A stretch of DNA of 64,000 nt from an uncultured Pseudomonadota bacterium (GTDB lineage: Bacteria > Pseudomonadota > Gammaproteobacteria > Steroidobacterales > Steroidobacteraceae), in the NCBI GenBank assembly GCA_937920275.1, contig CALGVD010000105.1, positions 1 through 64,000 of the forward strand. The letters are read 5' to 3'. Shown here in pieces: positions 12,199 to 27,611 of the stretch. Under the pieces are notes generated by a model that ran no database searches, was not told the origin of the DNA, and saw only the letters and a list, made by a program, of their open reading frames with translations. The translations under genes and the position numbers were made by a program. Position 1 is the first letter of the stretch; every line of letters begins with the position of its first letter.

Positions 12199-14265
12199 AT
12201 GATCGCCGATCCGCTCGCCCAGATCCTGCTGTTGCTGGCCGCGGCGGTGGGCGTCGTCGCGCTCGCCCGTCGAGTCGGGCTGCCGGCGATCCTCGGCTAT
12301 CTCCTCGTCGGCACGGTCATGGGCCCTTACGCGCTCGGGCTCGTCGATGAGACCGAGGGTACGAGGCTGCTCGCGGAGCTCGGCGTGGTGTTCCTCTTGT
12401 TCACGCTCGGCTTGGAGTTCTCTTGGCCACGCATGGTCGCGATGCGCCGCGAGGTGTTCGGCGTCGGCAGCGTGCAGATGTTGCTGGTGGCAGGGTGCGC
12501 CTCGCTCGCGTTCCATGCCTTCGGTGTCGATCTGCTCGCTGCGGTGGCGCTCGGCGGTGCGGTCGCGGTCAGTTCCACCGCGATCCTCGTCCAACAGCTG
12601 ACCGAGCAATCGGAGCTCAACCGCACCCACGGTCGGGTCGCGTTCAGCGTGCTGCTGTTCCAGGATCTCGCGTTCGTCCCGTTCTTGGTGCTGGCCGGTG
12701 CCTTGGCAGCGGGCAGCCTCGACTTCAGCGCCATGCGGATCGGCACGGCGGTCGCGGTCGGCACCTTGGCGGTCGGGTTCGTGCTGCTCGTGGGTCGCTA
12801 TGCGCTGCGACCGCTCTTCCATGAGATCGCCCACAGCCGTCTGCAGGAGCTCTTCACGCTCGCGGTGTTGTTGGTCGTGCTCGGTTCGGCGTGGGTGTCC
12901 CATGCCGCCGGTGTCTCGATGGCCACCGGCGCGTTCCTCGCGGGCGTGATGCTCGCGGAGACGGAGTACCGACATCAGGTCGAGGCCGCCATCCGGCCGT
13001 TCCGCGACATCCTGCTGGGGCTGTTCTTCATCTCGGTGGGCATGATGCTCGACCTGCGTGTTCTGCAGGACGATCTCGCGCTGATCCTCGGCATCCTGGT
13101 CGTGATGACGGTCGGCAAGTTCCTGCTGATGACGCTGGTCGGCCGGATGTGGGGGCTGCCGCCTTTCAAGGCGGTGCGCACCGCGATCGTGCTGTCGGTG
13201 GGGGGCGAGTTCGGTATCGCGATCCTCACCATCCTGATCCAGGGCGATGTGGTGGCGGATGAGATCAGTCAGCCGTTGCTCGTCGCGATCGTGCTCAGCA
13301 TGGTGAGCGCGCCGCTGCTCTTGCGGCAGAACCGACGCATCGCTCGGCTATTGTTGGGCGAGCGCCGGCCGTCCGCGGGCATCGCGCCCGAACTGACGGC
13401 GGAGGATCGTGCCGTCGCCGAACTCGCGGCACGCGAGCATGTGATCCTCTGTGGCTACGGGCGGGTGGGGCAGAACCTCGCATCTGTGCTCGAGGCGCAA
13501 GGGCACGAGTGCTTCGCGATGGATCTCGATCCGGCGCGGGTGCGTGCAGGTCGCGCGGCTGGGCGTTCGGTGATGTTCGGCGACGCCTCCGACCCGGAAC
13601 TGCTCGGGACGGCCGGACTCGCCAACGCGAGTGCGGTGGTGGTGACCTTCTCGGCGCCCGCCGTCGCCATCGGGATCGTGCGCGCGGTCCGCGCGGCACG
13701 CGCGGAGGTCCCGATCCTGGTGCGCACGGCCGATGATTCAAATCTCGAAGAGCTGATGGAAGCGGGGGCGACCGAGGTCGTCCCGGAGACCTTCGAGGCC
13801 AGTCTGATGCTCGCCTCGCACGCCCTGCTGGTCCTCGGGCAACCGCTCTCGCGGGTGGTGCGCGCGGTCGGGGGCGCCCGCAGCGACAACTACGCGGCCT
13901 TGCGCGGTGTGGTGCGTGGGATCGAAGGGTTGCCCGCGTCCGCACCCGGTGCTGCGGAGGCGGTGCAGACCGTGGTGCTACCGCCCGGTGCTTGGTCGAT
14001 CGGCCAGCGCCTCGATGCGCTCCGTGCGGATGGGCTGACGGCCCGGATCGAGAGCGTGCGTCGCCACGGCATCATCGGCCGCGACCCGGATCCGTCGCTG
14101 ACCTTGCAGCAGGGCGATGAGGTCGTGATGGTCGGTAAACCCGCCGAACTCGAGCACAGCGAGCTGCTGCTGCTCGCCGGCGAGATCAGCCGGCGCTCGA
14201 CACCGCCTGCAGCGACTCCCGAAGGGCGGACACCGCGCCGCGGATCTCGTCCTCGGAGGAGATGA
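12199..14265 (+). CDS. Monovalent cation:proton antiporter-2 (KefB/KefC-like) with TrkA/RCK domain
   Basis: A 688-residue protein from ATG 12199. About 12 membrane segments of the CPA2 Na+/H+ exchanger fold occupy the first 390 residues (LPAILGYLLVGTVMGPYALGLV, LFTLGLEFS, FQDLAFVPFLVLAG). Next is a Rossmann RCK-N domain (VILCGYGRVGQNLASVLEAQG, GDASDPELL), then a TrkA-C-like region (about 570-660). It should exchange K+ for H+, with gating by nucleotide or glutathione adducts as in Kef. The basic Pro/Arg-rich tail runs past the stop of the convergent aminotransferase gene (80-base overlap), so the last ~25 residues may not be conserved. Coupling with msrA suggests a link to oxidative or electrophile stress. 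Confidence 0.92.
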   Translation: MIADPLAQILLLLAAAVGVVALARRVGLPAILGYLLVGTVMGPYALGLVDETEGTRLLAELGVVFLLFTLGLEFSWPRMVAMRREVFGVGSVQMLLVAGCASLAFHAFGVDLLAAVALGGAVAVSSTAILVQQLTEQSELNRTHGRVAFSVLLFQDLAFVPFLVLAGALAAGSLDFSAMRIGTAVAVGTLAVGFVLLVGRYALRPLFHEIAHSRLQELFTLAVLLVVLGSAWVSHAAGVSMATGAFLAGVMLAETEYRHQVEAAIRPFRDILLGLFFISVGMMLDLRVLQDDLALILGILVVMTVGKFLLMTLVGRMWGLPPFKAVRTAIVLSVGGEFGIAILTILIQGDVVADEISQPLLVAIVLSMVSAPLLLRQNRRIARLLLGERRPSAGIAPELTAEDRAVAELAAREHVILCGYGRVGQNLASVLEAQGHECFAMDLDPARVRAGRAAGRSVMFGDASDPELLGTAGLANASAVVVTFSAPAVAIGIVRAVRAARAEVPILVRTADDSNLEELMEAGATEVVPETFEASLMLASHALLVLGQPLSRVVRAVGGARSDNYAALRGVVRGIEGLPASAPGAAEAVQTVVLPPGAWSIGQRLDALRADGLTARIESVRRHGIIGRDPDPSLTLQQGDEVVMVGKPAELEHSELLLLAGEISRRSTPPAATPEGRTPRRGSRPRRR

Positions 14266-15520
14266 AGGGCGGGGCGAGCGCCAGCGTCTCGCCCGTGAAC
14301 CGCAACATCAGTCCGCGCGAGAGCGCCTGCTCGAACACCTGATAGGCGCGCAGCGCGGGTTTCCCCGGAACCGGCGTGACATCGATGGCTGCGGCAAGGC
14401 CCAGGTTGCGGATGTCGGTGACCAGCGCTTCGCCCCGCAGCGAGTGGATGGCGTCCTCGAGCACCGGCGCAAGCGTGGCGGCACGGTTGATGAGATCTGC
14501 GGCGGCCAGTTCATCGAGCGTGGCGTGTGCGGCCGCGACCGCGAGCGGATGGGCGGAGTAGGTGTAGCCGTGGAAGAACTCGATGATGTGTTCCGGGCCC
14601 GTCATGAAGGTGTCGTAGATCTGTGACGCCGCGAGCACGCCGCCGAGCGGTACGGTGGCGTTGTTGACCGCCTTGGCGAAGGTGGTCATGTCCGGCTGGA
14701 CGCCAAAGAAATCAGCAGCGAAGGGTGTGCCGAGACGACCGAACCCGGTGATCACTTCATCGAAGATCAGTAGTATGCCGTGCTTGGTGCAGATCTCGCG
14801 CAGACGCTGCAGATAGCCCTTCGGCGGGACGATGACGCCGGTCGAACCCTGCATCGGTTCGACGATCACGGCGGCGATGGTGCTCGCATCGTGCAGCGCG
14901 ACGATGCGCTCGAGGTCTTCGGCGAGGTGCAGACCCCAATCGGGTTGCCCTCGCGAGTACCCCATCTTCGAGGTGTCCCAGGTGTGCGGCAGATGGTCGA
15001 CGCCGGGGATCATGAGTGGCGCGAACATCTTGCGGTTGGCGAGGATGCCGCCCACCGAGATGCCGCCCATGCCGACGCCGTGGTAGCCGCGCTCGCGACC
15101 GATGATGCGGGTCCGCGAGGCCTCGCCGCGTGCACGATGGTAGGCGACCGCGATCTTGAGGGCGGTGTCGACCGCCTCGGACCCGGAGTTGACGAAGAAG
15201 ACCTTGTCGTCCGGGCGTCCGGCGAGCGAGGCGATGCGCTCGGCGAGGGTGAAGGCGGCGGTATGGCCCATCTGGAAGCTCGGCGCGAAATCGAGCGTGG
15301 CGACCTGCTTCTGCACGGCTTCGACGACCCGCGCCGGCGAATGTCCGAGCGGACTGCACCAGAGCCCGGACAACCCGTCGAACACCCGTCGCCCGTCGGC
15401 GAGGGTGTAGTACGCACCTTGACCCGAGACGATCAGGCGCGGTTGGGCCTTGAAATGCCGGTTGTGGGTGAAGGGCATCCACCAGGCGCGCAGCGCCGCT
15501 TCGCTCGGGACGGCGCTCAT
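14186..15520 (-). CDS. Class III (omega-amino acid:pyruvate-type) aminotransferase
   Basis: A 444-residue PLP enzyme from ATG 15520. Visible: WMPFTHNRHFKAQPRLI amino end typical of omega-transaminases, NSGSEAVDTALKIA (phosphate cup), ERGYHGVGMGGISVGG, the PLP Asp in IFDEVITGFGRLG and the Schiff-base Lys in TTFAKAVNNATVPLGGV. It should move amino groups from amines or beta-amino acids to pyruvate. Its ATG overlaps the stop of the aromatic aminotransferase gene (ATGA), so the two are coupled. The carboxyl end overlaps the convergent antiporter gene by 80 bases. Confidence 0.92.
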   Translation of the reverse strand: MSAVPSEAALRAWWMPFTHNRHFKAQPRLIVSGQGAYYTLADGRRVFDGLSGLWCSPLGHSPARVVEAVQKQVATLDFAPSFQMGHTAAFTLAERIASLAGRPDDKVFFVNSGSEAVDTALKIAVAYHRARGEASRTRIIGRERGYHGVGMGGISVGGILANRKMFAPLMIPGVDHLPHTWDTSKMGYSRGQPDWGLHLAEDLERIVALHDASTIAAVIVEPMQGSTGVIVPPKGYLQRLREICTKHGILLIFDEVITGFGRLGTPFAADFFGVQPDMTTFAKAVNNATVPLGGVLAASQIYDTFMTGPEHIIEFFHGYTYSAHPLAVAAAHATLDELAAADLINRAATLAPVLEDAIHSLRGEALVTDIRNLGLAAAIDVTPVPGKPALRAYQVFEQALSRGLMLRFTGETLALAPPFISSEDEIRGAVSALRESLQAVSSAG

Positions 15521-16707
15521 GAGCGCACCGCAGCGATGAGGCCGGCTGCGACCCGATCGACATTGGCGGGGCTGATCCCGGCGATGTTGATGCGGCCGTC
15601 GGGCGGCATATAGAGGCGGTGCTGCTCGCGTGCGGATCCGACCTGCGTGGCCGAGAGCGGCAGCCGCGAGAACATCCCGCGTTGCGCGCCGATCCAACCG
15701 TAGTCGGTGCCGGCCGCGGCGCTCAGCCGATCGGCGAGCAGGGCGCGCAGACCGTTGATGCGACGGGCCATGTGAGCGAGCTCGGTCATCCAGTCCTGGC
15801 GCAGAGCGGGTTGTGACAACACACGCTGCACGATCGCGGCGCCATGATCCGGCGGCATCGACCAGAGCGTTCGGGCGAGGCGGCCGAGGTGACCGGTGGT
15901 GATGGCGGCGCGCTCCGCACCCGCGCCGAGCGCGATGAGCACGCCGGTGCGTTCGCGGTAGATGCCGAAATTTTTGGAGCAGGACACCGCGACCAGCATC
16001 TCGGGCACGGCGCGCGCCATCAGCCGCACCGAGGCGGCGTCGCGGTCGAGGTCTTCGCCGAGTCCGAGGTAGGCGAGGTCCATGAACGGCAGCAATCCGC
16101 GGCGGGCGACGACGGAGGCGACCTCGCTCCATTGCGCGGGGGTGAGATCCTGGCCGGTGGGGTTGTGGCAGCACGCGTGCAGCACGACGATGGTGCCGGC
16201 GGGCTGGGCGTCGAGGTGGCCGAGCATGCGATCGAACAGCACGCTCGGCTGCTGCGGGTCGTAGTAGGGATAGCGATCGACTTTCAGACCCACGGTGCCG
16301 AGCAGCGGGATGTGGTTGGCCCAAGTCGGGTCGCTGACGAGGATGGTGGCGCCCGGCCGTGCCGCTTGCAGCAACTCGGCGCCAAGGCGCAGCGCGCCGC
16401 TTCCGCCCGGGGTCTGCGCGAGCGACAGGTCGGCCTTGCGACCGGCGTGATCGCTGCCGAGCACGAGCTCCGTCATCAACGCATTGCAACCCGCGTTGCC
16501 GATCGGGCTGACATAGGTCTTGGTGGATTGCTCGGCGAGCAGTTCCTGCTCGGCGGTGCGCACGGCACGCATGATCGGGGTCTTGCCGTGCTCGTCTTTG
16601 TAGACGCCGACCCCAAGGTCGACCTTGTCCGGTGAGTCGTCGGCTTGGAAGGCCGCCGAGACGCTGAGGATCGGATCGGGCGGGACGCGGACGAGGGTCT
16701 CGAACAT
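15517..16707 (-). CDS. Aromatic/aspartate aminotransferase (class I, TyrB/AspC-like)
   Basis: A 396-residue PLP enzyme. I chose ATG 16707 (MFETLVRVPPDPILS), the standard start of this family; the frame extends upstream without homology. Motifs: DLGVGVYKDEHGKTPIMRAV, QTPGGSGALRLGAELL, LHACCHNPTGQDLT, FMDLAYLGLG and the Schiff-base SCSKNFGIYRERTG. The conserved carboxyl-terminal Arg region is in DGRINIAGI. It converts aromatic or dicarboxylic amino acids to 2-oxoacids with 2-oxoglutarate. First gene of a two-gene operon with the class III aminotransferase. It ends the CoA locus on its left side, with a 61-base gap to an acyl-CoA dehydrogenase. Confidence 0.93.
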   Translation of the reverse strand: MFETLVRVPPDPILSVSAAFQADDSPDKVDLGVGVYKDEHGKTPIMRAVRTAEQELLAEQSTKTYVSPIGNAGCNALMTELVLGSDHAGRKADLSLAQTPGGSGALRLGAELLQAARPGATILVSDPTWANHIPLLGTVGLKVDRYPYYDPQQPSVLFDRMLGHLDAQPAGTIVVLHACCHNPTGQDLTPAQWSEVASVVARRGLLPFMDLAYLGLGEDLDRDAASVRLMARAVPEMLVAVSCSKNFGIYRERTGVLIALGAGAERAAITTGHLGRLARTLWSMPPDHGAAIVQRVLSQPALRQDWMTELAHMARRINGLRALLADRLSAAAGTDYGWIGAQRGMFSRLPLSATQVGSAREQHRLYMPPDGRINIAGISPANVDRVAAGLIAAVRS

Positions 16708-16768: not shown

Positions 16769-17968
16769 TCAGTAACCGTCCAGCCGCGCGCTGCGGTCGC
16801 GATGCCAACCGGCGGTACCGTAGAGGGTCTCGAGGACCCGCGCCCGCTTGAGGTAAAGGCCTGCATCGTAGGCGTCGGTCATGCCGACGCCGCCGTGCAA
16901 TTGCACCGCCTCGTTGCTGACGAGGTGCAGCGTGTCGCCGGCGCGCGCCTTGGCGAGCGAGGCGAGGGAGGCAAGCGAGGCGACCGAGGCGACCGAGGCG
17001 ACCGAGGCACCTTGGGCCGCCGCCGATCGCACCGATGTGCTGACGCCTGCAGCATCATCGAGCGCATCGAGCGCCGCCAGCACGCAACTGCGGGTGAGCT
17101 CGAGGTCGACGAACATGCGTGCCGCGCGGTGTTGCAGCGACTGGAAGGCACCGATCGGCTGGCCGAATTGGCGCCGGGTCTTGAGGTGATCGAGGGTGAG
17201 CGCGAACAACGCATCCGCGGCGCCCAGCATCTCGGCCGCAAGACCGATCCGGGCTGTATCGAGCACACCTTCGAGGGCGGTCGCCGCCTCACCGACGCTG
17301 CCGAGCACCGCATCGTCTGCGACGCGCACGGCGGTGAGGTCGAGGTCTGCCATGCCGCGGCTGTCCGCCATCGCGAGCGGCTTTCGGACGAGACCGTCCG
17401 CCGAGCCGGCCACGCAGAACACGCTCAGGCTTTCCGGTGCGCCAGGCGTCGGCGCGGCGAGCGCCGCGATCAGCAGGTGGCTTGCGGTGGCGCCGTCCGG
17501 CACAAAGCGCTTCTGGCCCTCGAGCCGCCAACCGCCCGGCTCACGCACGGCGCGCATCGCGATCCGCGACGGCGCGTGGTGCGCACCCTCATCCAACCCC
17601 AAGGCGGTGGTCATCTCGCCTGCCGCGATGGCAGGCAACCAAGCCGCGCGTTGCGCATCCGATCCCAGTGCCTCGATCGCCGCGACGCCGACCAGCGCGC
17701 TCTGCAGCAGCGGCGAGGCGACGAGCGTGCGTCCAGCAGCCTCGAGCACGAGGCCGAGCGAACGCCAACCCATGCCCGAGCCGCCGTAGGCTTCAGGGAC
17801 CGCTGCGCCCGCGAAGCCGAGCGCTGCGATCTCCTGCCAGAGTGCCGGGTCGAAGGGGCGGCCGGCGGCGCGGTCGGCACGCAGTGCCTTCACAGGTGCC
17901 CGTTCCGCAAAGAATTCGCGGGCGCTGTCCTGCAGCAGTCGTTGGTCGTCGGTGAGGGGGCGTGTCAT
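16769..17968 (-). CDS. Acyl-CoA dehydrogenase family subunit, probably non-catalytic partner
   Basis: A 399-residue protein from ATG 17968, one base past the stop of the preceding dehydrogenase. The amino-terminal helical domain (TRPLTDDQRLLQDSAREFF), the middle FAD domain (LGLDEGAHHAPSRIA) and the carboxyl domain with RRQFGQPIGAFQSLQHRAARM and VQLHGGVGMTDAYDAGLYLKRA are present. The usual EGT(S/N)E catalytic segment is absent: the tail reads VLETLYGTAGWHRD. Paired dehydrogenases of this kind form alpha2beta2 enzymes in steroid and other acid catabolism, with the active-site residue in one subunit. A run of Ser-Val/Leu-Ala triplets (about residues 321-338) is coded by a 9-base tandem repeat. 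Confidence 0.88.
   Translation of the reverse strand: MTRPLTDDQRLLQDSAREFFAERAPVKALRADRAAGRPFDPALWQEIAALGFAGAAVPEAYGGSGMGWRSLGLVLEAAGRTLVASPLLQSALVGVAAIEALGSDAQRAAWLPAIAAGEMTTALGLDEGAHHAPSRIAMRAVREPGGWRLEGQKRFVPDGATASHLLIAALAAPTPGAPESLSVFCVAGSADGLVRKPLAMADSRGMADLDLTAVRVADDAVLGSVGEAATALEGVLDTARIGLAAEMLGAADALFALTLDHLKTRRQFGQPIGAFQSLQHRAARMFVDLELTRSCVLAALDALDDAAGVSTSVRSAAAQGASVASVASVASLASLASLAKARAGDTLHLVSNEAVQLHGGVGMTDAYDAGLYLKRARVLETLYGTAGWHRDRSARLDGY
16953..17006. repeat. Six 9-bp tandem units inside an acyl-CoA dehydrogenase gene
   Basis: Units read on the plus strand as gcgagcgag, gcgagggag, gcaagcgag, then three identical gcgaccgag. They code in frame for (S-[VL]-A)6 on the minus strand, so copy change would keep the frame. 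The position is within the carboxyl-terminal helical bundle, just before the segment KARAGDTLHLVSNEAVQLHGG. Confidence 0.9.
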
Positions 17969-17969
17969 G

Positions 17970-19154
17970 TCAGGTGGGATCCGGCAGACCGAGCACGCGC
18001 TTGGCCACCACATTGAGGTTGATCTCGGAGGTGCCGCCCTCGATGGAGTTGCCCTTCGAGCGCAGCCAATGCCGCGTCGCGCGCAGCGCATCAGGATGGA
18101 AGCCGTCGCCCTCCCAGCCGAGCCCGCCGAGGCCGAGCGTTTCGACCAGAAGTTCGAGGCGTTGCTGGTTGACCGACGCTGCCGCGTATTTGAAGAGCGG
18201 CGCGAGGTGGTCGATGTTGCCGCCGGCGCGGGCTTCGGCTTGCGCGCGGCGCACCGTGAGGTGGAAGGCGCGCTCCTGCATGCGGAACGCGGCGATGCGG
18301 ACGCGCAGGTCGCCGTCGGCGAGTTGACCGCACATCAGGCCGACGCTCTGCTGGGCGGCGGTGACGAGGTCGAGTCCGACGCCACCGCCGAAGGCCGCGG
18401 TCGAGATGCTTTGACGCTCGTGGGTCAGCAAGCGCTTGGCGATCTCCCATCCGCCGTTCAGTTGACCGACGAGTTGGTCCTTGGGGACGCGGACATCGGT
18501 GAGGAAGGTCTCACAGAACGGCGATTCGCCGGAGATCAAGGCGATCGGTCGCGTCTCCACGCCCGGTGTGCGCATGTCGAACACGATGAAGGAGATGCCG
18601 GCATGCTTGGCGGTGGTGTCGGTGCGCACCAAGCAGAACATCCAGTCGGCCTTGTCGGCGTAACTGGTCCAGATCTTTTGTCCGTTGACGAGGAAGTGGT
18701 CGCCGCGGTCCTCGCAGCGCGTGGCGAGGCTCGCCAGGTCGGAGCCGGCGCCAGGTTCGGAATAGCCTTGGCACCAGCGGATGCGGCCGCGGATGATGTC
18801 CGGCAACCACGCGTGCTTCTGCGCTTCGCTGCCGAACTCGAGCAGCACAGGTCCGAACATCCAGAGACCGAACGACCAGAGCGGTGCGCGCGCCCCGATG
18901 CGCCGCAGTTCTTCCTGCAGCACCGCGTTCTCGGCGGGGGCGAGGCCACCGCCGCCGTAGGCCGCGGGCCAGGTGGGTGCCGTCCAACCGCGCTCGCCCA
19001 TGCGCTCGAGCCAAAGCCGGGCGTCATCGTTCGGGAACGATGCATTGCGTCCGCCCCAGACGACCTCTTTTTCATCGAGCGCCGTACGCATCGCTGCAGG
19101 GCAATTCGTTTCGAGCCAAGCTCGGGTGTCGCGGCGGAAAGTCTCGAGGGACAT
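17970..19154 (-). CDS. Acyl-CoA dehydrogenase, catalytic partner of the adjacent subunit
   Basis: A 394-residue flavoprotein. Substrate/FAD motifs are clear: WCQGYSEPGAGSDLASL, GQKIWTSYADKADW, and the carboxyl-terminal SIEGGTSEINLNVVAKRVLGLP, which carries the Glu of the catalytic segment. It is followed after one base by a second dehydrogenase lacking that segment, so the pair probably forms a heterotetramer. It should oxidise an acyl-CoA to the 2,3-enoyl-CoA, passing electrons to ETF. The closest remembered relatives are FadE-type enzymes of steroid or branched-acid breakdown. It is 3 bases downstream of an SDR gene. Confidence 0.92.
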   Translation of the reverse strand: MSLETFRRDTRAWLETNCPAAMRTALDEKEVVWGGRNASFPNDDARLWLERMGERGWTAPTWPAAYGGGGLAPAENAVLQEELRRIGARAPLWSFGLWMFGPVLLEFGSEAQKHAWLPDIIRGRIRWCQGYSEPGAGSDLASLATRCEDRGDHFLVNGQKIWTSYADKADWMFCLVRTDTTAKHAGISFIVFDMRTPGVETRPIALISGESPFCETFLTDVRVPKDQLVGQLNGGWEIAKRLLTHERQSISTAAFGGGVGLDLVTAAQQSVGLMCGQLADGDLRVRIAAFRMQERAFHLTVRRAQAEARAGGNIDHLAPLFKYAAASVNQQRLELLVETLGLGGLGWEGDGFHPDALRATRHWLRSKGNSIEGGTSEINLNVVAKRVLGLPDPT

Positions 19155-19157
19155 GGG

Positions 19158-19957
19158 TCAGCGCGCCGCCAACAAGCCGCCATCGCAGGCGATGACTTCG
19201 CCGACGATGTACTCGCCGGCGCGCGAGGCGAGGAAGAGCGCGAGCCCGGCGATGTCCTCGGGCGTACCGACGCGGCCGCTCGGGTTCAACTGGCCGACTT
19301 TCTCCCAGTCGACGCCGTCGCCCTCGATCTTGCCGCCGAAGCCGACACCAGTGCTGAGCATCCAGGTGGGGAAGGGGCCGGGTGCGATGGCGTTGACGAG
19401 GATGCGCTCGCGCACGAGGCGCGCGGCCAGCATCTTGGTGAGGTGGTGGATCGCGGCCTTGGAAGGGCCGTACGAGAAGGTGTCGAACATCGGCGTGCCG
19501 CGGCCATCCACGGAACCGATGTTGATCACGCGGGACGGCGTCCCGGTGGCGGCGGCGGCGCGCAACGCGGGCAGCAACGCTTGGGTGAGGAAGAACGGAC
19601 CCTTCACATTGGTGTCCATGACCTTGTCCCAGCCCGCTTCGGGGAACTCCCCGAGCTTCGCACCCCAAGAGGCACCCGCATTGTTGATGAGCACATCGAG
19701 GCGGGGCTCGCGGGCGGTGAACGCCGTGGCGAGGGCGGTGACACCCTCGAGCGTGGAGAGGTCGGCGGGCAGGGCGGCACATTCACCGCCGTTCGCTGCG
19801 ACAAGGCGCGCTGCTGCGGCATGGCAGGCTTCGGCTTTACGCGCGCTGATATAGACCTTGGCGCCACCGACCAAAAAGCCAGCCGCCATCATCTCGCCGA
19901 TGCCGCGCGAGCCGCCGGTGATGAGCACGGTCTTGCCGGTGACGGAGAACAGATCCT

Positions 19958-19961
<4 letters not shown>
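19158..19961 (-). CDS. Short-chain dehydrogenase/reductase
   Basis: A 267-residue NAD(P)-dependent oxidoreductase from ATG 19961; the ATGA overlaps the stop of the upstream dehydrogenase gene. Rossmann glycine motif TGGSRGIG at about 15-22, NNAG near residue 91, catalytic Ser in INIGS and Tyr/Lys in YGPSKAAI, then [12 protein letters not shown] and the carboxyl-terminal [14 protein letters not shown]. Classical SDR length and order. The probable role in this locus is oxidation of a 3-hydroxyacyl-CoA or reduction of a keto/enoyl intermediate; exact substrate unknown. Confidence 0.92.
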
Positions 19962-21199
<1,238 letters not shown>

Positions 21200-21225: not shown

Positions 21226-22380
21226 TCAGCGCGCCTTGTCCATGGCGTCTATCGCTGCGTCATCATAGCCGAGCGTGCGCAGGATGAGCCGGTTGTGCTC
21301 GCCGATCGCAGGCAGCGTGAAGCGGGGTGTGCCTGGTTCGTCGCGGAACTTCACCGGCAGACCGATGTGCTCGAGGCCGTCGGCGTCGCGCAGGCGCATG
21401 CCGCGCGCCTCGGCTTGGGGGTCGTCGAAGGCCTCGCGCAGGTCTTTGACCGGCGCAAACCCGATGTCCCGCCCGGCGAACCACTCGACCCACTCATCGC
21501 GGCTGCGGGTCGCGAATCTCTCCCGCAGGAAGTCGATCAAGGGCTGTTGATGCGGGCCCGGTCCACGCTCGGCGAGCGCCACGAGATCGGGCCTGCCGAA
21601 CTCGCCGAGCAGGGTACGCACGAACTTGAGCTCCTGCGCGCCGAGCACGATGTGCCGGCCATCGCGGGTGCGGTAGATGTTGTAGAAAGCGCCGCCTCCC
21701 AAGCTGCGCTCGTGCTTCGGTACGGGCGCGCGGCCATGGGCGAACACCTGCCCGGTGATGTTCGGGGTCCAGGAGAGTGCGGAGTCGTGCATCGAGATGT
21801 CGATGAAGTCGCCGCGTCCGGTCTGCTCGCGGCGCAGCAAGGCCATCATGATGCCGCCGAAAGCGAGCAGTGAAGCGGCCATGTCCGCGACCGGCACATG
21901 CGGCATCGCAGGTTCGCCGTCGTTGCCGAGGTTCAGGCTGACGAGCCCCGCGTAGGCCTCGGTCGCAAGGTCGTGCGCGGGGATGTCGCGATAGGGGCCA
22001 TCCTGCCCGAAGGCGGAGATCGAGCAATACACGATGCGCGGGTTGCGGGCCGACACGGCGGCGTAGCCGACCCCGAGACGATCGACCACGCCCGGACGGA
22101 ACGCCTCGATGAAGACATCTGCCGTCTCGGCGAGACGCAGCAGCGCCTCACGCGCCTCGGCTTGCTTGAGGTTGAGGCAGAGGCTCTGCTTGCCGCGGTG
22201 GGTGTTGCGGAAGAACACGGTGTGACCGCCGATCGCGGCACCGATATGGCGGTTCGGTTCGCCTTCGCCCGGCGGCTCGACCTTGATCACCGAGGCGCCA
22301 TGGTCGGCCATCATGAGCGAGGCCTGCGGCCCCGGGAGGAACAGCGAGAGATCGATGACGCGCAGGCCTTCCAGTTTCAT
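21226..22380 (-). CDS. CaiB/BaiF family (class III) CoA-transferase
   Basis: A 384-residue protein from ATG 22380; the open frame extends upstream without family similarity. Family features: amino-terminal [62 protein letters not shown], the active-site Asp in [28 protein letters not shown] and the carboxyl-terminal [19 protein letters not shown]. It moves CoA between acids without ATP. Second of two CaiB genes in a row, separated by 10 bases, so the two may work on successive substrates or as partners. Confidence 0.93.
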
Positions 22381-22390
22381 CGGGCGCTCG

Positions 22391-23626
22391 TCAGGTGATG
22401 CCCGAGGCCCGCAGCGCGGCGAGTTCCTCGGCCGTGTAACCCAGATCGCCGAGCACCGCCTCGGTGTCGGCGCCGAGCGCCGGACCGCTGGTCGCCGGCA
22501 GGCGTCTGCCATCGAGCTTGATCGGGTTCGCGAAGCTGCGGAAATCGGCGCGCAGCGGATGCGGCGTCGTGCGGATCATGCCGTTCGCGATCGGGAAGGG
22601 GTTGTCGAGCGCCTGCGCGAGGTCGTAGACCGGCGCGGCGGGCAGCACGCCTTGCAGCTTCTCCAGCCAGTGTGCGGTGGTGTCGGTCTCGAACACGTCG
22701 TCGAGCGCTGCCGTCAGGACATCGCGATGCTCGCGCCGCGCCGCCATGTCCGCAAACCGCGGATCGGCAGCCACCGCTGGCGCGTCGATCACGCGCAGCA
22801 GTTCCTGCCAGAACTTCTCCGTCATGCACATGACGAAGATCCAGCCGTCGGCGGTCTTGAAGAGCTGCACCGGCGTTGCGGTCGGGTGTGCGCTGCGGGG
22901 TGCGCGGCCCGTGACGAGCTGATCGTTGAGATACCAGGTGCCGGGGTATGAGAGCTGGTGCAGCGCCACATCGAACAGGCTGACATCGATGTCCCGTCCG
23001 CTGCCGCCACGGGCCACGCCGAGCAGCGCCGAGACCAGTGCAAGTGCGGTGGTGATGCCGGTCATGTAGTCGATGATGGAGAGACCCATGCGGGAGGGCG
23101 GTGAGCCCGGCTCGCCGGTCACATGCAGGAAACCCGCCTCGGCTTGCATGAGGTAGTCGTAGCCCGGCCAGCCGCGTCGTTCGTTGTCGCGTCCATAGGC
23201 CGAGAGGTGCGCGCAGATGATGCGTGGATTGGCGTCACGCAACGCGTCGTAGGTGAGACCGAGCTTGTCGGGTTGGTCGCCGCGCAGATTGTTGAGCACG
23301 GCGTCCGAGGTCGCGACCAGCCGCAGGAAGGCCGCGCGTCCTGCGGGTTGCTTGAGGTCGAGGCAGACGCTGCGCTTGTTGAGGTTGAAGGTCTGGAAGA
23401 AATGCGAATCGTGCTCGCCCAAGAAAAAAGGTCCCATGCCGCGCGTGGCATCGCCGCCCTGGGCGCGGTTCTCGATCTTGATGACCTCGGCGCCGAGGTC
23501 CGCGAGGTACATCGAGCCGAAGGGTCCCGCGCCGAACGCCTCGAAGGTGAGCACCCGCAGCCCGGCGAGCGGCAAGGCGGGCGAGGGCGGCCGGGGGCCG
23601 CCTGCAGCCGTGCGCTGCTCAGACAT
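22391..23626 (-). CDS. CaiB/BaiF family (class III) CoA-transferase
   Basis: A 411-residue protein from ATG 23626, which shares one base with the upstream stop (TGATG). The frame continues far upstream through the dehydrogenase gene, which is a shadow. Motifs: LAGLRVLTFEAFGAGPFGSMYLADLGAEVIKIENRAQGGD, NLNKRSVCLDLKQPAGRAAFLRL, the active-site Asp in WPGYDYLMQAEAGFLHVTGEPG, RDIDVSLFDVALHQLSYPG and a terminal LGYTAEELAALRASGI. Distinct in sequence from the neighbouring CaiB protein, so not a recent duplicate. Confidence 0.93.
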   Translation of the reverse strand: MSEQRTAAGGPRPPSPALPLAGLRVLTFEAFGAGPFGSMYLADLGAEVIKIENRAQGGDATRGMGPFFLGEHDSHFFQTFNLNKRSVCLDLKQPAGRAAFLRLVATSDAVLNNLRGDQPDKLGLTYDALRDANPRIICAHLSAYGRDNERRGWPGYDYLMQAEAGFLHVTGEPGSPPSRMGLSIIDYMTGITTALALVSALLGVARGGSGRDIDVSLFDVALHQLSYPGTWYLNDQLVTGRAPRSAHPTATPVQLFKTADGWIFVMCMTEKFWQELLRVIDAPAVAADPRFADMAARREHRDVLTAALDDVFETDTTAHWLEKLQGVLPAAPVYDLAQALDNPFPIANGMIRTTPHPLRADFRSFANPIKLDGRRLPATSGPALGADTEAVLGDLGYTAEELAALRASGIT

Positions 23627-24780
23627 CACACCGGATTCCGTTCGATGAGCTGGCGCGCGATGATGATGCGCTGCATCTCGTTGGTGCCCTCGCCGATGCA
23701 CATCAGCGGCGCGTCGCGATAGTAGCGTTCGACATCGAAGTCGGTGGAATAGCTGTAGCCGCCGAAGATGCGCATCGCCTCGAGGCTGTTCTCGACGCCT
23801 GCTTCGGACGCGAACAGTTTCGCCATCGAGGACTCGAGGTCGCAGCGTTCGCCGGTGTCGTACTTGCGGGCCGCCTGCTCGATGAGCAGGCGTGAGGCTT
23901 CCACCCGGGTCGCCATGTCGGCGAGCTTCAGCTGGATGGCTTGGTGCTGTGCGATCGGCTTGCCGAAGGTCTCGCGCTGCTGGGCGTAGCGCAGGGCGTC
24001 GCGCAGCGCGCCGGCTGCGATGCCGGCACCGCGCGCGGCGACATTGATGCGACCGAGCTCGAGTCCGCCGACCGCTTGCTGGAAACCGCGTCCTTCCTCG
24101 CCGCCGATGAGGTTCGCAGCCGGCACGCGGAAATCTTCGAACACGAGTTCGGCGCTGTCGATGCTCTTGTAGCCGAGCTTGCGGATCTTCTTGGCGGCGC
24201 GGAAGCCTTCGCCTTTTTCGCAGAGGAACATGGTCATGCCCTTGTGGCGGGGCTGCGCGGCCGGGTCGGTCTTCACCAGCACGCCGAAGCAGCTGCCGTA
24301 GACGCCGTTGGTGATCCAGGTCTTGGTGCCGTTGATCACATAGGCATCGCCGTCGCGCCGGGCGACGGCGCGGATGGCCTGCAGGTCGGTGCCGGCGTTC
24401 GGCTCGGTGAGGCCGATGCCGCCACGGATCTCGCCGCTCGCGAAGCGTGGCAGCCACTGCCGCTTCTGGGCGTCGGTGCCGTGCCGCTGTACGCAGGCCG
24501 CCATGATGAGGTGCGAGTTGAAGATCCCGACCGGCGCCATCCAGACCGAGGCGATGCTCATCACCAGACGCGCATAGGTCGAAGCCGACAGCCCGAGGCC
24601 GCCGAACTCCGGCGCGATGGTGGCACCGAAGAGGCCGAGCCCTTTCATCTGCTCGACGATGTCCTCGGGGTACTCATCGGCATGGTCGAACTTCCGGGCG
24701 ACCGGCCGCAGTTCGCGCTCAGCCCAGCGCTCGATGCTGTCGATGATCTCGTGATCGATGTCGTCGGTGCCCATGTTCAT
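23626..24780 (-). CDS. Acyl-CoA dehydrogenase
   Basis: A 384-residue flavoprotein of usual length. GGIGLTEPNAGTDLQAIRA and KTWITNGVYGSCFGVLVKT (FAD/substrate), AKKIRKLGYKSIDSAELVFEDFRVP, RETFGKPIAQHQAIQLKLADM and the carboxyl-terminal CIGEGTNEMQRIIIARQL with the catalytic-segment Glu. It is a stand-alone homotetramer-type enzyme of the isovaleryl/glutaryl/butyryl class. ATGA overlap with the MaoC gene upstream and TGATG overlap with the CaiB gene downstream mean tight coupling. Likely oxidises a short or branched acyl-CoA. Confidence 0.95.
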   Translation of the reverse strand: MNMGTDDIDHEIIDSIERWAERELRPVARKFDHADEYPEDIVEQMKGLGLFGATIAPEFGGLGLSASTYARLVMSIASVWMAPVGIFNSHLIMAACVQRHGTDAQKRQWLPRFASGEIRGGIGLTEPNAGTDLQAIRAVARRDGDAYVINGTKTWITNGVYGSCFGVLVKTDPAAQPRHKGMTMFLCEKGEGFRAAKKIRKLGYKSIDSAELVFEDFRVPAANLIGGEEGRGFQQAVGGLELGRINVAARGAGIAAGALRDALRYAQQRETFGKPIAQHQAIQLKLADMATRVEASRLLIEQAARKYDTGERCDLESSMAKLFASEAGVENSLEAMRIFGGYSYSTDFDVERYYRDAPLMCIGEGTNEMQRIIIARQLIERNPV

Positions 24781-25316
24781 GCTCCGGTGCCGTCGTCCGC
24801 TGCGGGTTTGGGGTCATCCACCGCGAAACCGCGCTTGGCGATCAGGATGCTGCGTTCGAACTCGCAGACCACGGTGCCATGTTGGTTGCGGCCGAGGGTG
24901 CGCACGGTGACCACGCCCGCGGTCGGACGCGACTTCGAATCGCGCTTATCGAGGACCTCGGACTCGGCGTAGAGCGTATCGCCGGGGAACACCGGCGCGG
25001 TCATGCGGATGTCCTTCCAGCCGAGGTTGGCGATGGCCTTCTGGCTGACATCGCTCACGCTCATGCCGACCAGCACGGCGAGGGTCAGCGGCGAGGCGAC
25101 GATACAGCGGCCGAACTCCGACGCTTTGCCGTACTCGGCGTCGAAGTGCAGCGGGTGGGTGTTCATCGTGAGCAGCGTGAACCAAGTGTTGTCCGCATCG
25201 GTCAGGGTGCGGCCCGGACGATGTTCGTAGACATCGCCGACCACGAAGTCTTCGTAGTGACGGCCGAAGGATTCCCGGTAGCGACCGGGGGCGAGCTTCA
25301 TGGGGGAGTGCGACAT
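24777..25316 (-). CDS. MaoC-family enoyl-CoA hydratase
   Basis: A 179-residue hot-dog fold protein from ATG 25316 (an ATG at 25301, MKLAPGRYRESFG, is an alternative). Visible: FVVGDVYEHRPGRTLTDADNTWFTLLTMNTHPLHFD (the hydratase region with Asp/His), GRCIVASPLTLAVLVGMSVSD and a second half APVFPGDTLYAESEVLDKR. It would add water to an enoyl-CoA, complementing the dehydrogenases downstream. It resembles mesaconyl/itaconyl-CoA-hydratase-like MaoC proteins more than PhaJ. First gene of the minus-strand block, after a 34-base gap from the transporter. Confidence 0.9.
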   Translation of the reverse strand: MSHSPMKLAPGRYRESFGRHYEDFVVGDVYEHRPGRTLTDADNTWFTLLTMNTHPLHFDAEYGKASEFGRCIVASPLTLAVLVGMSVSDVSQKAIANLGWKDIRMTAPVFPGDTLYAESEVLDKRDSKSRPTAGVVTVRTLGRNQHGTVVCEFERSILIAKRGFAVDDPKPAADDGTGA

Positions 25317-25350: not shown

Positions 25351-26325
25351 TCAACGCTCGGCGGTGGGTTCGTCGAGGCGCTTCGGGTCGCCCGCGCGGG
25401 CGAGATCGAGCGCGAGGATGCCGCCGACGATGAGTGCGATGCCGAGCCACTGCCATCCACCCAACCGCTCACCGAGCAGCGCCCAGGCGAGCAGCACGGT
25501 GGTCGGCGGGCCGACCGTCGAGAGCACCGCACCGCGCTGCGCGCCGATGCGCCGGACGCCCTCGGCCTGCAGCAGCGCCGGCAAGAACATGCACAGCACC
25601 GAGATCAGGGCGAGCAGCAGCCAGGCGGCGGGGGTGATGGCGGCGAGTTCGGCGCTGGCATCCCGCGTGAAGATGAAGTGCGGGATCAGACAAGCCGCCG
25701 CGGCGGTCATCGCGAACAGCGTGAATCGCGGGCTGCCGAGCTCGCGGGTGTACTTCTCGCTGACGAGGAAATAGACCGCGTAGGTGAGCGCCGAGCCGAG
25801 CACGAGCACCGCACCGAGCAGGTTGGCGCGCAGTTCGGTCAGATCGAACCCGCCCATGGTGAAGAAGATGCCGAGGTAGGTCAGTGCGGCGGCGGCCAAC
25901 ACACGCCGCGGGGGTGGCTGTCGATCCCGCAGCGCCGTGAACAGCACCACCATCGCCGGGTAGCTGAAGATCAGGACCCGCTCGATGCTGGCATCGATCA
26001 TCGTGAGCGCCAGGAAATCGAGCAGCGCGCCGGCGTAGTAACAGAGTGCGCCGACGGCGGCGGCGGCGGCGATGGCCGAGGTCGGTGTGCTGCGGATGAC
26101 CGCCCAACCGTCGCGCCGCAGCGCGAACGCCCAGAAGAGCGGCAGCGCCAGCGTCGCCCGGATGGCCACGAGCGCCACATAACCGACGCCGAGCGCGTAG
26201 AGCTGCTTGGCGAAGATGCCCTTGGTCGCGAACAGCATGGCCGCCAGCGCGACGAACAGCGCGCCCGCCGGATCGAGGGCCGGTGTTCGGAAGGCGGCCT
26301 TGGGGGGCGGGGGTTCGGGCGGCAT
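25351..26325 (-). CDS. EamA/DMT-superfamily transporter
   Basis: A 324-residue membrane protein with ten hydrophobic segments in two EamA repeats (about residues 20-150 and 165-310). Landmarks: MLFATKGIFAKQLYALGVGYVALVAIRATLALPLFW, FTALRDRQPPPRR at the repeat junction and TVLLAWALLGERLGGWQWLGIALIVGG near the end. Probably an exporter or importer of small metabolites; substrate unknown. It reads leftward into the CoA locus and is divergent from a broken CaiB gene, so the 56-base gap holds both promoters. Confidence 0.9.
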   Translation of the reverse strand: MPPEPPPPKAAFRTPALDPAGALFVALAAMLFATKGIFAKQLYALGVGYVALVAIRATLALPLFWAFALRRDGWAVIRSTPTSAIAAAAAVGALCYYAGALLDFLALTMIDASIERVLIFSYPAMVVLFTALRDRQPPPRRVLAAAALTYLGIFFTMGGFDLTELRANLLGAVLVLGSALTYAVYFLVSEKYTRELGSPRFTLFAMTAAAACLIPHFIFTRDASAELAAITPAAWLLLALISVLCMFLPALLQAEGVRRIGAQRGAVLSTVGPPTTVLLAWALLGERLGGWQWLGIALIVGGILALDLARAGDPKRLDEPTAER

Positions 26326-26381
26326 GGGCGCCGGAGCGTATCATCGAAGGGGTGTCGATGCCGTACCGTCGGAGGACCGTG

Positions 26382-27611
26382 ATGCCGGGGCCGTTGCATG
26401 GCGTGAAGGTGGTGGAGATGACGAGCGTCGTGCTCGGACCTTGGGCGTGCCAGATGCTCGCCGACATGGGCGCCGACGTCGTCAAGATCGAACAGCCGCA
26501 AGGCGACAGCCTCCGCGCCTTGGGCGCCGCCCGGAGCCCGGGCATGGGCGCGTTCTATCTCAACTGCAACCGCAACAAGCGCAGCATCGTGCTCGATCTG
26601 CGCGTCCCGGGCGCCCGCGATGCGCTGCTCGCGATGGTGAAGGACGCCGATGTCTTCATCCACAACAACCGGCCCCAGGTCATGACCCGGTTCGGTCTCG
26701 ACTACGCCGACCTCCGGCAGGTGAACCCGAGGCTCATCTACTGCGGCGCGTACGGCTACGCCAAGCAGGGGCCGTACGGTGCGCTGGGTGCGCTCGATGA
26801 TTCGATCCAGGCGGCGAGCGGCATCGCCATGCTCAATGAAATGGTGCTGGGCGAGCCACGCTATGTGCCCACGATCGTCGCCGACAAGACCACGGCGCTC
26901 ACGGTGGTGTACGGCGTGACGGCCGCGCTCTTCCACCGCGAGCGCACCGGTCAAGGTCAGGAGTTGGAGGTCCCGATGTTCGAGACCATGGTCAACTTCG
27001 TCATGGCCGAGCATCTTTGGGGGATGACCTTCGATCCGCCCGAGGGCAAACCGGGTTATGTGCGCCTGCTGAGCGAGCATCGCAAGCCCTGCAAGACGCT
27101 CGATGGCTACCTCTCGGTCTTGCCGTACCTCGACAGCCACTGGGAGAGATTCTGCACGGTGACCGGACACAGCGAACTCATCGACGACGTCCGTTTCCGG
27201 ACGCTCGTCGATCGCGTGCGCAACATCGATGCGACTTCGCAGATCACGGCCGAGATCCTGGCGACCCGCAGCACCGCCGAATGGCTGCAGGTGTTCGCCC
27301 GCACGGGCATCCCGCATATCGTGGTCAACACGCTCGAAGATCTCGCGACCGACCCGCATTTGGTTGCGACCGGATTCTGGCAGTTCTAGGACCACCCGAC
27401 CGAGGGGCGTCTGCGGATGCCGTCCTTCCCGGTGAACTTTGGCTCGACCCCGGCGATGATCAACCGTCCGGCGCCGCGTCTCGGCGAGCATACTGAGGAG
27501 ATCCTGCGCGAGGCGGGGCTCGATGCCGCCACCATCGCGGCCCTCGTGGCCGCGGGTGCGGCGATGAGCGCTGATCAGGCTGCGAAGACGGTGGGTAAGG
27601 GCGGCGACTGA
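26382..27611 (+). pseudogene. CaiB/BaiF family CoA-transferase interrupted by an in-frame TAG
   Basis: From ATG 26382 (ribosome site ggagga five bases before) the frame gives a standard family protein: LHGVKVVEMTSVVLGPWACQMLADMGADVVKIEQPQGDSL, NRNKRSIVLDLRVPGARDALLAM, active-site Asp in GALDDSIQAASGIAML. After 335 codons comes TAG (27387-27389). The same frame goes on with DHPTEGRLRMPSFPVNFGSTP and GEHTEEILREAGLDAATIAALV to the TGA at 27609-27611. The paralogue at 59170-60375 aligns through the stop (its VQTIDHPTEGRIR matches WQF-stop-DHPTEGRLR), so the TAG replaces a single ordinary codon. Truncation removes the last ~75 residues. A true mutation, a sequencing error or readthrough are the options. 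Confidence 0.85.

Follow-up and report, generated by a model that had tools for sequence, protein, structure and literature searches.

The window analysed here, a stretch of 64,000 nucleotides from an uncultured member of the Steroidobacteraceae (contig CALGVD010000105.1 of assembly GCA_937920275.1), carries two adjacent acyl-CoA dehydrogenase (ACAD) genes on its minus strand, here called LSU (394 aa) and SSU (399 aa). Very probably the pair is a member of the known family of alpha2beta2 heteromeric ACADs, found here in an uncharacterised operon, because the genes are adjacent, a helix-G Glu is confined to one subunit, the cofactor motifs are split between the two proteins and the gene order is conserved. 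We estimate a probability of about 0.88 that LSU and SSU form one such enzyme, as its catalytic and its structural, flavin adenine dinucleotide (FAD)-completing subunits; this figure applies to the heteromeric architecture and not to the substrate.

Division of catalytic and cofactor motifs between LSU and SSU

LSU is transcribed first, and its TGA stop is separated by a single C from the ATG of SSU (17968). The preliminary description of this DNA, made from the letters alone, was right about the one-base spacing and had the order reversed: the gene encoding SIEGGTSEI is LSU and precedes in transcription the one encoding LETLYGTAGWH, which is SSU.

Residues were counted over 134 LSU and 80 SSU rows from named and unnamed relatives, the denominators being the rows with a letter at the position concerned. 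Open reading frames (ORFs) below 80 bits, those below 160 bits where both models exceeded 60, and LSU rows below 150 bits were omitted. Alignments A3 and A4 hold the window protein and the first 45 of 56 candidates for SSU and of 70 for LSU. The segment LTHERQS of LSU aligns with LNHERVA of ChsE4 (PDB chain 4x28_A), which places Glu246 on Glu247, the residue we take to be the base of ChsE4. This helix-G position is occupied by Glu in all 133 LSU rows and in none of the 79 SSU rows, where Ala (57), Gly (15), Ile (4), Val (2) and Ser (1) are found instead. The MCAD-type base position holds Glu in neither set, but Gly (127) and Ala (4) in LSU and Phe (33), Tyr (24), Leu (17) and His (2) in SSU. 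In SSU, DTAR lies opposite DYER of the isovaleryl-CoA dehydrogenase chain 4kto and LYGT opposite YEGT of 4n5f; the protein lacks both classical bases, having Ala239 in helix G and Tyr383 at the MCAD-type position. Confinement of the catalytic Glu to one subunit is a mark of the alpha2beta2 heteromeric ACADs.

SIEGGTSEI had been proposed as the catalytic segment. This was mistaken, because its Glu is not at the MCAD-type position, which is taken by a Gly with the Glu one residue before it, and because this Glu of IEGG is not universal among LSU rows (Glu 101, Tyr 25, Phe 5, thus Tyr or Phe in 30 of 131), whereas the helix-G Glu is. Glu246 of the HER motif is the better supported candidate and the likely, predicted catalytic base. 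The broader proposal of a heteromeric pair in which only one protein looks catalytic is well supported, by the helix-G Glu and the split FAD motifs rather than by the motif first named. A catalytic base elsewhere in the protein lacking SIEGGTSEI had been named as evidence that would count against it; at the two classical positions of SSU no Glu is present, and a non-classical base may lie elsewhere in this protein.

The FAD-site motifs are likewise divided. In ACAD structures, the motifs kept by LSU bind the flavin-ring side of the cofactor, and those kept by SSU bind the adenine and pyrophosphate side across the dimer interface. All 133 LSU rows have Ser132, Trp162 and either Thr or Ser at 163, and the SSU rows mostly have Asp, Phe and Val at these positions, with a single Trp at 162. 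The R-x-QFG motif has both its Arg and its Phe in 78 of 78 SSU rows; in LSU the Arg never occurs (128 gaps, 5 Ala, 1 Tyr) and Phe is not among the eight commonest letters at its position. The Gln of QLHGG is present in 76 of 76 SSU rows against seven LSU rows. By sequence alone, this division points to a cofactor site shared across an interface. Passages of PMC8399759 describe heterotetrameric steroid ACADs as having, for each alpha-beta pair, a single catalytic Glu and a single interface-bound FAD.

In the enzyme that we propose, LSU would supply the flavin-ring and substrate side of the active site together with Glu246, which would abstract the alpha proton as the beta hydride passes to FAD. 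SSU, with neither the classical bases nor the flavin-ring motif, would complete the cofactor site across the dimer interface through its R-x-QFG and QLHGG motifs, lost in LSU. Neither protein would work alone, and the tetramer would carry two active sites. The data show the complementary sequences, the conserved gene order and the family; how the subunits assemble, which step they catalyse and on what class of substrate are inferences.

All three ACAD domains of Pfam (N-terminal, middle and C-terminal) are matched by both proteins; for the middle one SSU stays below the cut-off (26.5 against 33.3 bits). The best NCBIfam models are PimC for LSU (254 bits, cut-off 623.85) and PimD for SSU (202.2 bits, cut-off 652.7); with scores of less than half the curated cut-offs the two are not PimC/PimD equivalogs. 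Starts agreeing with relatives were used in place of the long starts of the ORF finder. A 440-aa version of SSU, with its start inside LSU, was rejected in favour of the start at 17968, which fits the aligned relatives. A 9-base tandem repeat of 6.3 copies lies inside SSU (window 16952-17008) and encodes a VASVASVASLASLASL stretch that is shorter in one relative (L021) and absent from the other six aligned.

Structural relatives and conservation of the pair

Among solved chains, LSU is most similar in sequence to 6wy8_B and then 4x28_A, and SSU to 6wy8_A, that is, to the corresponding subunits of a solved steroid heterotetramer. The four top Foldseek matches of the LSU model (6wy9_A, 4x28_B, 6wy8_B and 4x28_A) are all catalytic chains, from the two heterotetramers with solved structures. 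The SSU model has a full ACAD fold, with a predicted local distance difference test score (pLDDT) of 93.4 and a predicted template modelling score (pTM) of 0.92, and among the 50 Foldseek matches shown for it the 6wy8 chains and 6wy9_B have the highest identity (30%).

The order of the two genes is widely conserved. A scan of named genomes used 80 loci, at 55-69% identity, out of at least 589 stretches encoding LSU relatives. Their hosts are Alphaproteobacteria, Gammaproteobacteria (SAR86 among them) and three metagenome-assembled genomes (MAGs) labelled as Acidobacteriota; Caulobacter, Hyphomonas, Henriciella, Phenylobacterium and Pseudomonadales MAGs are represented. Of the 74 testable loci, those with at least 1 kb of downstream DNA, 62 have SSU no more than 1 kb behind the last LSU; one of the six loci set aside (L081) shows an SSU start. 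Because the same order recurs in 62 of 74 named loci, the adjacency is more than chance, and with the one-base gap it is what a single functional unit would look like. Within a set of 40 genomes made up of the window's own and related ones, 25 have an LSU-type match at 1e-40, and in 17 of the 20 loci taken from them, the window's included, SSU adjoins LSU. The contig ends at the place of SSU in two others (L003, L004), and the third (L020) shows no SSU at the threshold used; a larger stretch covering that place (L031) has a weak SSU-type ORF there. Patterns made from the single LSU and SSU matched a few stretches of viral contigs, and none of these encodes a relative.

Several observations weigh against a single, fixed enzyme of LSU and SSU. 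The structure predictions are of single chains, and the case for their assembly is built on sequence. The LSU model is of moderate quality (pLDDT 86.5, pTM 0.79, weakest at residues 250-258 just past the base) and its Foldseek matches have template modelling (TM) scores of about 0.7 and root-mean-square deviations of about 6, and ordinary ACADs head the list for SSU, in which 6wy8_C ranks fifth and 6wy8_A eleventh. Twelve of the 74 testable loci have an LSU without a neighbouring SSU, and some genomes have several LSU per SSU, so a strict one-to-one unit is not general. Ten of the 12 exception genomes, those with the lone LSU of L070, L073, L074, L075, L077, L083, L086, L104, L091 and L110, were searched whole, and all ten have an SSU-type gene elsewhere (E <=1.5e-116). 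These distant SSU genes need not be partners of the lone LSU: of six inspected, two have a complete LSU as neighbour, one has an LSU fragment at a contig start, and three (L126, L127, L128) have none within 1.5 kb. A lone LSU may in some cases have a lone SSU as its partner, and in others may share one or have lost its own. For the substrate class, the evidence lies in neighbouring genes whose family assignments are mostly below curated cut-offs.

These points could be taken to favour separate homotetramers with different substrates that are merely co-transcribed, given the confident, complete fold predicted for SSU and the LSU genes lying away from any SSU. We regard this as highly improbable: the losses of bases and flavin-ring motif in SSU and of the second-subunit cofactor motifs in LSU are complementary and near-invariant, and lone LSU genes co-occur with SSU in ten of ten genomes searched, though three of the six such SSU inspected adjoin an LSU or LSU fragment.

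In seven loci (L067, L076, L079, L080, L087, L088 and L098), mostly from Phenylobacterium, a single SSU comes after a tandem array of three or four LSU genes; in two more (L068 and L105) the array is cut by the contig end, in L068 after five LSU. The array positions of LSU fall in separate branches of the tree. High-scoring LSU and SSU genes (at least 449 and at least 347 bits) number 5:1, 6:2 and 4:1 in three genomes searched whole, counts that omit lower-scoring paralogues (LSU of about 321 bits and less, SSU of 261 and less). Phenylobacterium haematophilum, for example, has five LSU of at least 449 bits, four of them in tandem, and a single SSU above 400 bits. We tentatively speculate, with the odds somewhat against it, that the pair falls in a large branch of heteromeric ACADs, most of it not concerned with steroids, in which a single inert subunit completes the FAD site for any of several catalytic subunits that can replace one another. 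If true, the operon in the window would be the simple one-to-one version of a modular family that tunes its substrate range by duplicating the catalytic half only. Such arrays are well suited to showing whether a single inert subunit can serve several catalytic ones. A limited literature search found no paper on a shared inert subunit or on the LSU branch itself, and no substrate assigned to that branch.

The operon and the possible substrate

An eleven-gene run on the minus strand, with gaps of -4 to 61 bases, has LSU and SSU in eighth and ninth place (Table 1). Most likely the pair, as a heteromeric enzyme, would perform alpha,beta-dehydrogenation in a beta-oxidation route for a non-steroid acid, which the family III CoA-transferases would start and the MaoC-type hydratase and SDR would continue. 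The acid would perhaps carry a second functional group, as in a dicarboxylate, an omega-amino or a 4-hydroxy acid.

Table 1. Genes of the eleven-gene run and codons discussed in the text (window coordinates).
Feature	Coordinates	Strand	Remarks
EamA/DMT-family transporter, first gene of the run	25351..26325	-	
MaoC-type enoyl-CoA hydratase	24777..25316	-	RipB/Ich best NCBIfam model, below cut-off
ACAD_A, ordinary-type ACAD with MCAD-type Glu (GEGTNEM)	23626..24780	-	nearest solved relative 4iv6 (FadE3)
CaiB1, family III CoA-transferase	22391..23626	-	
CaiB2, family III CoA-transferase	21226..22380	-	
ACAD_B, ACAD11/LvaC-type, Asp base (DGPDEVH) and HCMR motif	19958..21199	-	
SDR-family oxidoreductase, 3 bases upstream of LSU	19158..19961	-	candidate 3-hydroxyacyl-CoA dehydrogenase, putative role
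LSU, predicted catalytic (alpha) subunit of heteromeric ACAD, 394 aa	17970..19154	-	best solved relatives 6wy8_B/6wy9_A (Tcur3483), 4x28_A (ChsE4)
Glu246 codon of LSU (GAG), proposed base, helix G, motif HER	18417..18419	-	aligned to Glu247 of 4x28_A
Glu372 codon of LSU (GAG) in SIEGGTSEI, off the MCAD-type base position	18039..18041	-	residue alignment
SSU, predicted non-catalytic (beta) subunit, 399 aa	16769..17968	-	best sequence match among solved chains 6wy8_A (Tcur3481)
Ala239 codon of SSU, at the position of the helix-G Glu of LSU	17252..17254	-	residue alignment
Tyr383 codon of SSU, MCAD-type base position (LETLYGTAGWH)	16820..16822	-	residue alignment
Aromatic amino acid transaminase, 61 bases after SSU	15517..16707	-	above NCBIfam cut-off
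Omega-aminotransferase, AptA type, overlaps preceding gene by 4 bases	14186..15520	-	above NCBIfam cut-off

Five other stretches from the same genus have a window-type LSU (L021, L022, L023, L035 and L036), and in all of them MaoC, ACAD_A, both CoA-transferases and ACAD_B precede it; the two aminotransferases follow the pair in four, the fifth (L036) ending at LSU. A sulfatase (Pfam) takes the place of the SDR at L022:8513-10357, with an 84% identical protein at L023:8901-10610, and a GntR/UTRA regulator is encoded at L022:2409-3188. Beyond the operon, the opposite strand encodes another family III protein, the third of the locus, and a TonB receptor. The third family III CoA-transferase gene (window 26283-27608, plus strand) has an in-frame TAG at 27387-27389, which could be real or an assembly error; its relatives in L021, L035 and L036 (78-97% identity) have an open frame across the whole stretch. 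In the DNA covered at the 80 named loci, neither the CoA-transferases nor the MaoC of the operon had a match, so this arrangement of genes is a feature of the genus and not of the pair. Clustering of the neighbourhoods of these loci gave no usable widely common family besides the pair, with a crude choice of ORFs that included wrong-frame ones.

The pair might act on omega- or dicarboxylic acyl-CoAs in the manner of PimCD, fed by the AptA-type aminotransferase and the CoA-transferases. PimC and PimD are the best NCBIfam models for the pair, succinate-glutarate CoA-transferase is the best model for all three family III proteins (all below cut-off), and the AptA-type assignment is above cut-off. 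Furthermore, passages of PMC12543098 report fitness defects on C8-C12 dicarboxylates for a PimCD-like pair as well as for homologues of it from three other organisms. We nevertheless find this reading doubtful, as the pair scores far under the equivalog cut-offs, the operon is not its usual setting, and the eleven-gene run has no recognised semialdehyde dehydrogenase.

A place in 4-hydroxy acid breakdown, in which ACAD_B would dephosphorylate a 4-phosphoacyl-CoA and the pair would dehydrogenate before or after that step, is rather unlikely in our view. ACAD_B matches ACAD11 over its full length (E 2.7e-147), aligns to 8v3u and has the Asp and HCMR motif, whose meaning in the ACAD10/11-LvaC type is treated in passages of PMC12440821. 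An APH-family kinase, LSU, SSU, an ACAD11/LvaC-type ACAD, an SDR, MaoC and a second SDR form a single run at L115:4905-11752, possibly a 4-hydroxy acid cluster built around a heteromeric pair. No kinase was recognised as a partner for ACAD_B in the operon, but the genome of the window (G000) has three homologues of the L115 kinase on other contigs (C46 and C135). L130 (G000 C46:14001-28095) brings together two of these kinase homologues with genes resembling ACAD_B (40%) and CaiB2 (34%) and what looks by eye like an acyl-CoA ligase, and is possibly a second 4-hydroxy acid locus. The link to ACAD_B-like genes is confined to a small minority of the named loci (6 of 80), five with 52-58% identity and one with a 28% match at the end of L086; in L092, among the five, the gene is on the other strand about 4.5 kb away.

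The layout of the two genes had been read as that of heteromeric pairs in steroid and other complex-acid breakdown, which suggested polycyclic or branched substrates. The layout does not tell the substrate, because PimCD-like adjacent pairs have dicarboxylate fitness defects; branched and complex acids stay among the candidates, and the polycyclic, steroid part of the suggestion finds no support in the gene content. That LSU and SSU form a steroid side-chain or ring-remnant dehydrogenase like ChsE4/5, Scd1AB or IpdE1/E2 is improbable, although the best-scoring solved relatives are steroid ACADs and shortening of a side chain is conceivable in a bacterium that leaves the rings intact. An IpdB-like gene has no match in G000 (2.7 Mb, 99.75% complete, 12 matches to the ACAD N-terminal domain) and is found in 7 of the 40 genomes searched, the window's own included. 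Among the other seven genomes with an LSU at least 73% identical, it is absent from six (G004, G008, G010, G011, G015, G016) and present in G021, which has both a window-type LSU (92%) and steroid markers. A KshA-like gene has no match in G000, G004, G010, G015 or G016, all with a window-type LSU, and a strong match in six of six IpdB-positive genomes tested as positive controls. No steroid gene family was found among the operon proteins scanned.

In a tree of LSU sequences (rows of 330 aa or less excluded), the window LSU falls in a 121-row clade (support 99) with the named relatives, apart from six steroid-cluster LSUs (support 99) and ChsE4; the steroid references are ChsE4 and the LSUs of L031-L033, and as long branches meet here the deep order is unsure. 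The window SSU scores 202 bits with PimD against 127 with IpdE2, and the SSU of the steroid cluster in L033 shows the reverse (IpdE2 201, PimD 154).

The steroid trait is patchy within the genus. L031 (G001) and L033 (G003) have a compact steroid C/D-ring-like cluster in which two additional LSU/SSU-type pairs accompany IpdA/B-like, EchA-like and FabK-type genes; both pairs recur in L032 (G007), whose contig also has an IpdB-like match. Such same-genus species with IpdA/B-like and KshA-like genes and two further pairs in one cluster count in favour of the steroid reading. The names IpdA, IpdB, IpdC and EchA are ones we presume for the proteins of L031 and L033. At 1e-30, NCBIfam gave nothing for the IpdA/IpdB-like proteins and FabK, below cut-off, for the IpdC-like one; Pfam gave only a CoA-transferase domain (CoA_trans) for the IpdA/B-like proteins, below cut-off in the IpdB-like one. 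KshA_C is above cut-off for the Rieske-type protein of the steroid-type cluster, and IpdE2 is the best model, below cut-off, for the SSU there.

Any single substrate class is at best a doubtful assignment. The hints point to a non-steroid acid, possibly bifunctional or hydroxylated (4-hydroxy).

Comparison with known systems

What a tandem ACAD pair with an inactive subunit indicates is the architecture of an enzyme, not a steroid pathway. The layout is already known from steroid and dicarboxylic acid breakdown and occurs here in a different operon.

ACAD_B, the neighbour of the pair, shares with ACAD10/ACAD11 and LvaC the Asp base, the HCMR motif and a full-length match, but differs in that a kinase is neither fused to it nor recognised among the operon genes. 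The pimeloyl-CoA dehydrogenase PimC/PimD and its beta-proteobacterial relatives resemble LSU and SSU in being an adjacent pair and in giving the best NCBIfam models, although at less than half the cut-off scores. The operon content of PimCD presumably differs from that in the window. For PimCD-like adjacent pairs, a heterotetramer is only suggested in the relevant part of PMC12543098.

Heteromeric ACADs of proteobacterial steroid degradation, namely Scd1AB, ScdC1C2 and IpdE1E2, are proposed to be alpha2beta2 in passages of PMC8399759. The pairs of the steroid-type clusters in the same genus (L031-L033) share 26-36% identity with the window pair, and their LSUs lie on separate branches. Subunit by subunit, the window pair is like ChsE4-ChsE5 (FadE26-FadE27; PDB 4x28) and Tcur3481-Tcur3483 (PDB 6wy8/6wy9) in sequence, at about 28-31% identity: the catalytic subunit ChsE4 has Glu247 in helix G as LSU has Glu246, and its partner lacks the Glu as SSU does. 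ChsE4-ChsE5 and Tcur3481-Tcur3483 act on steroid side chains in actinobacteria, whereas in the genome of the window no steroid-ring markers were found.

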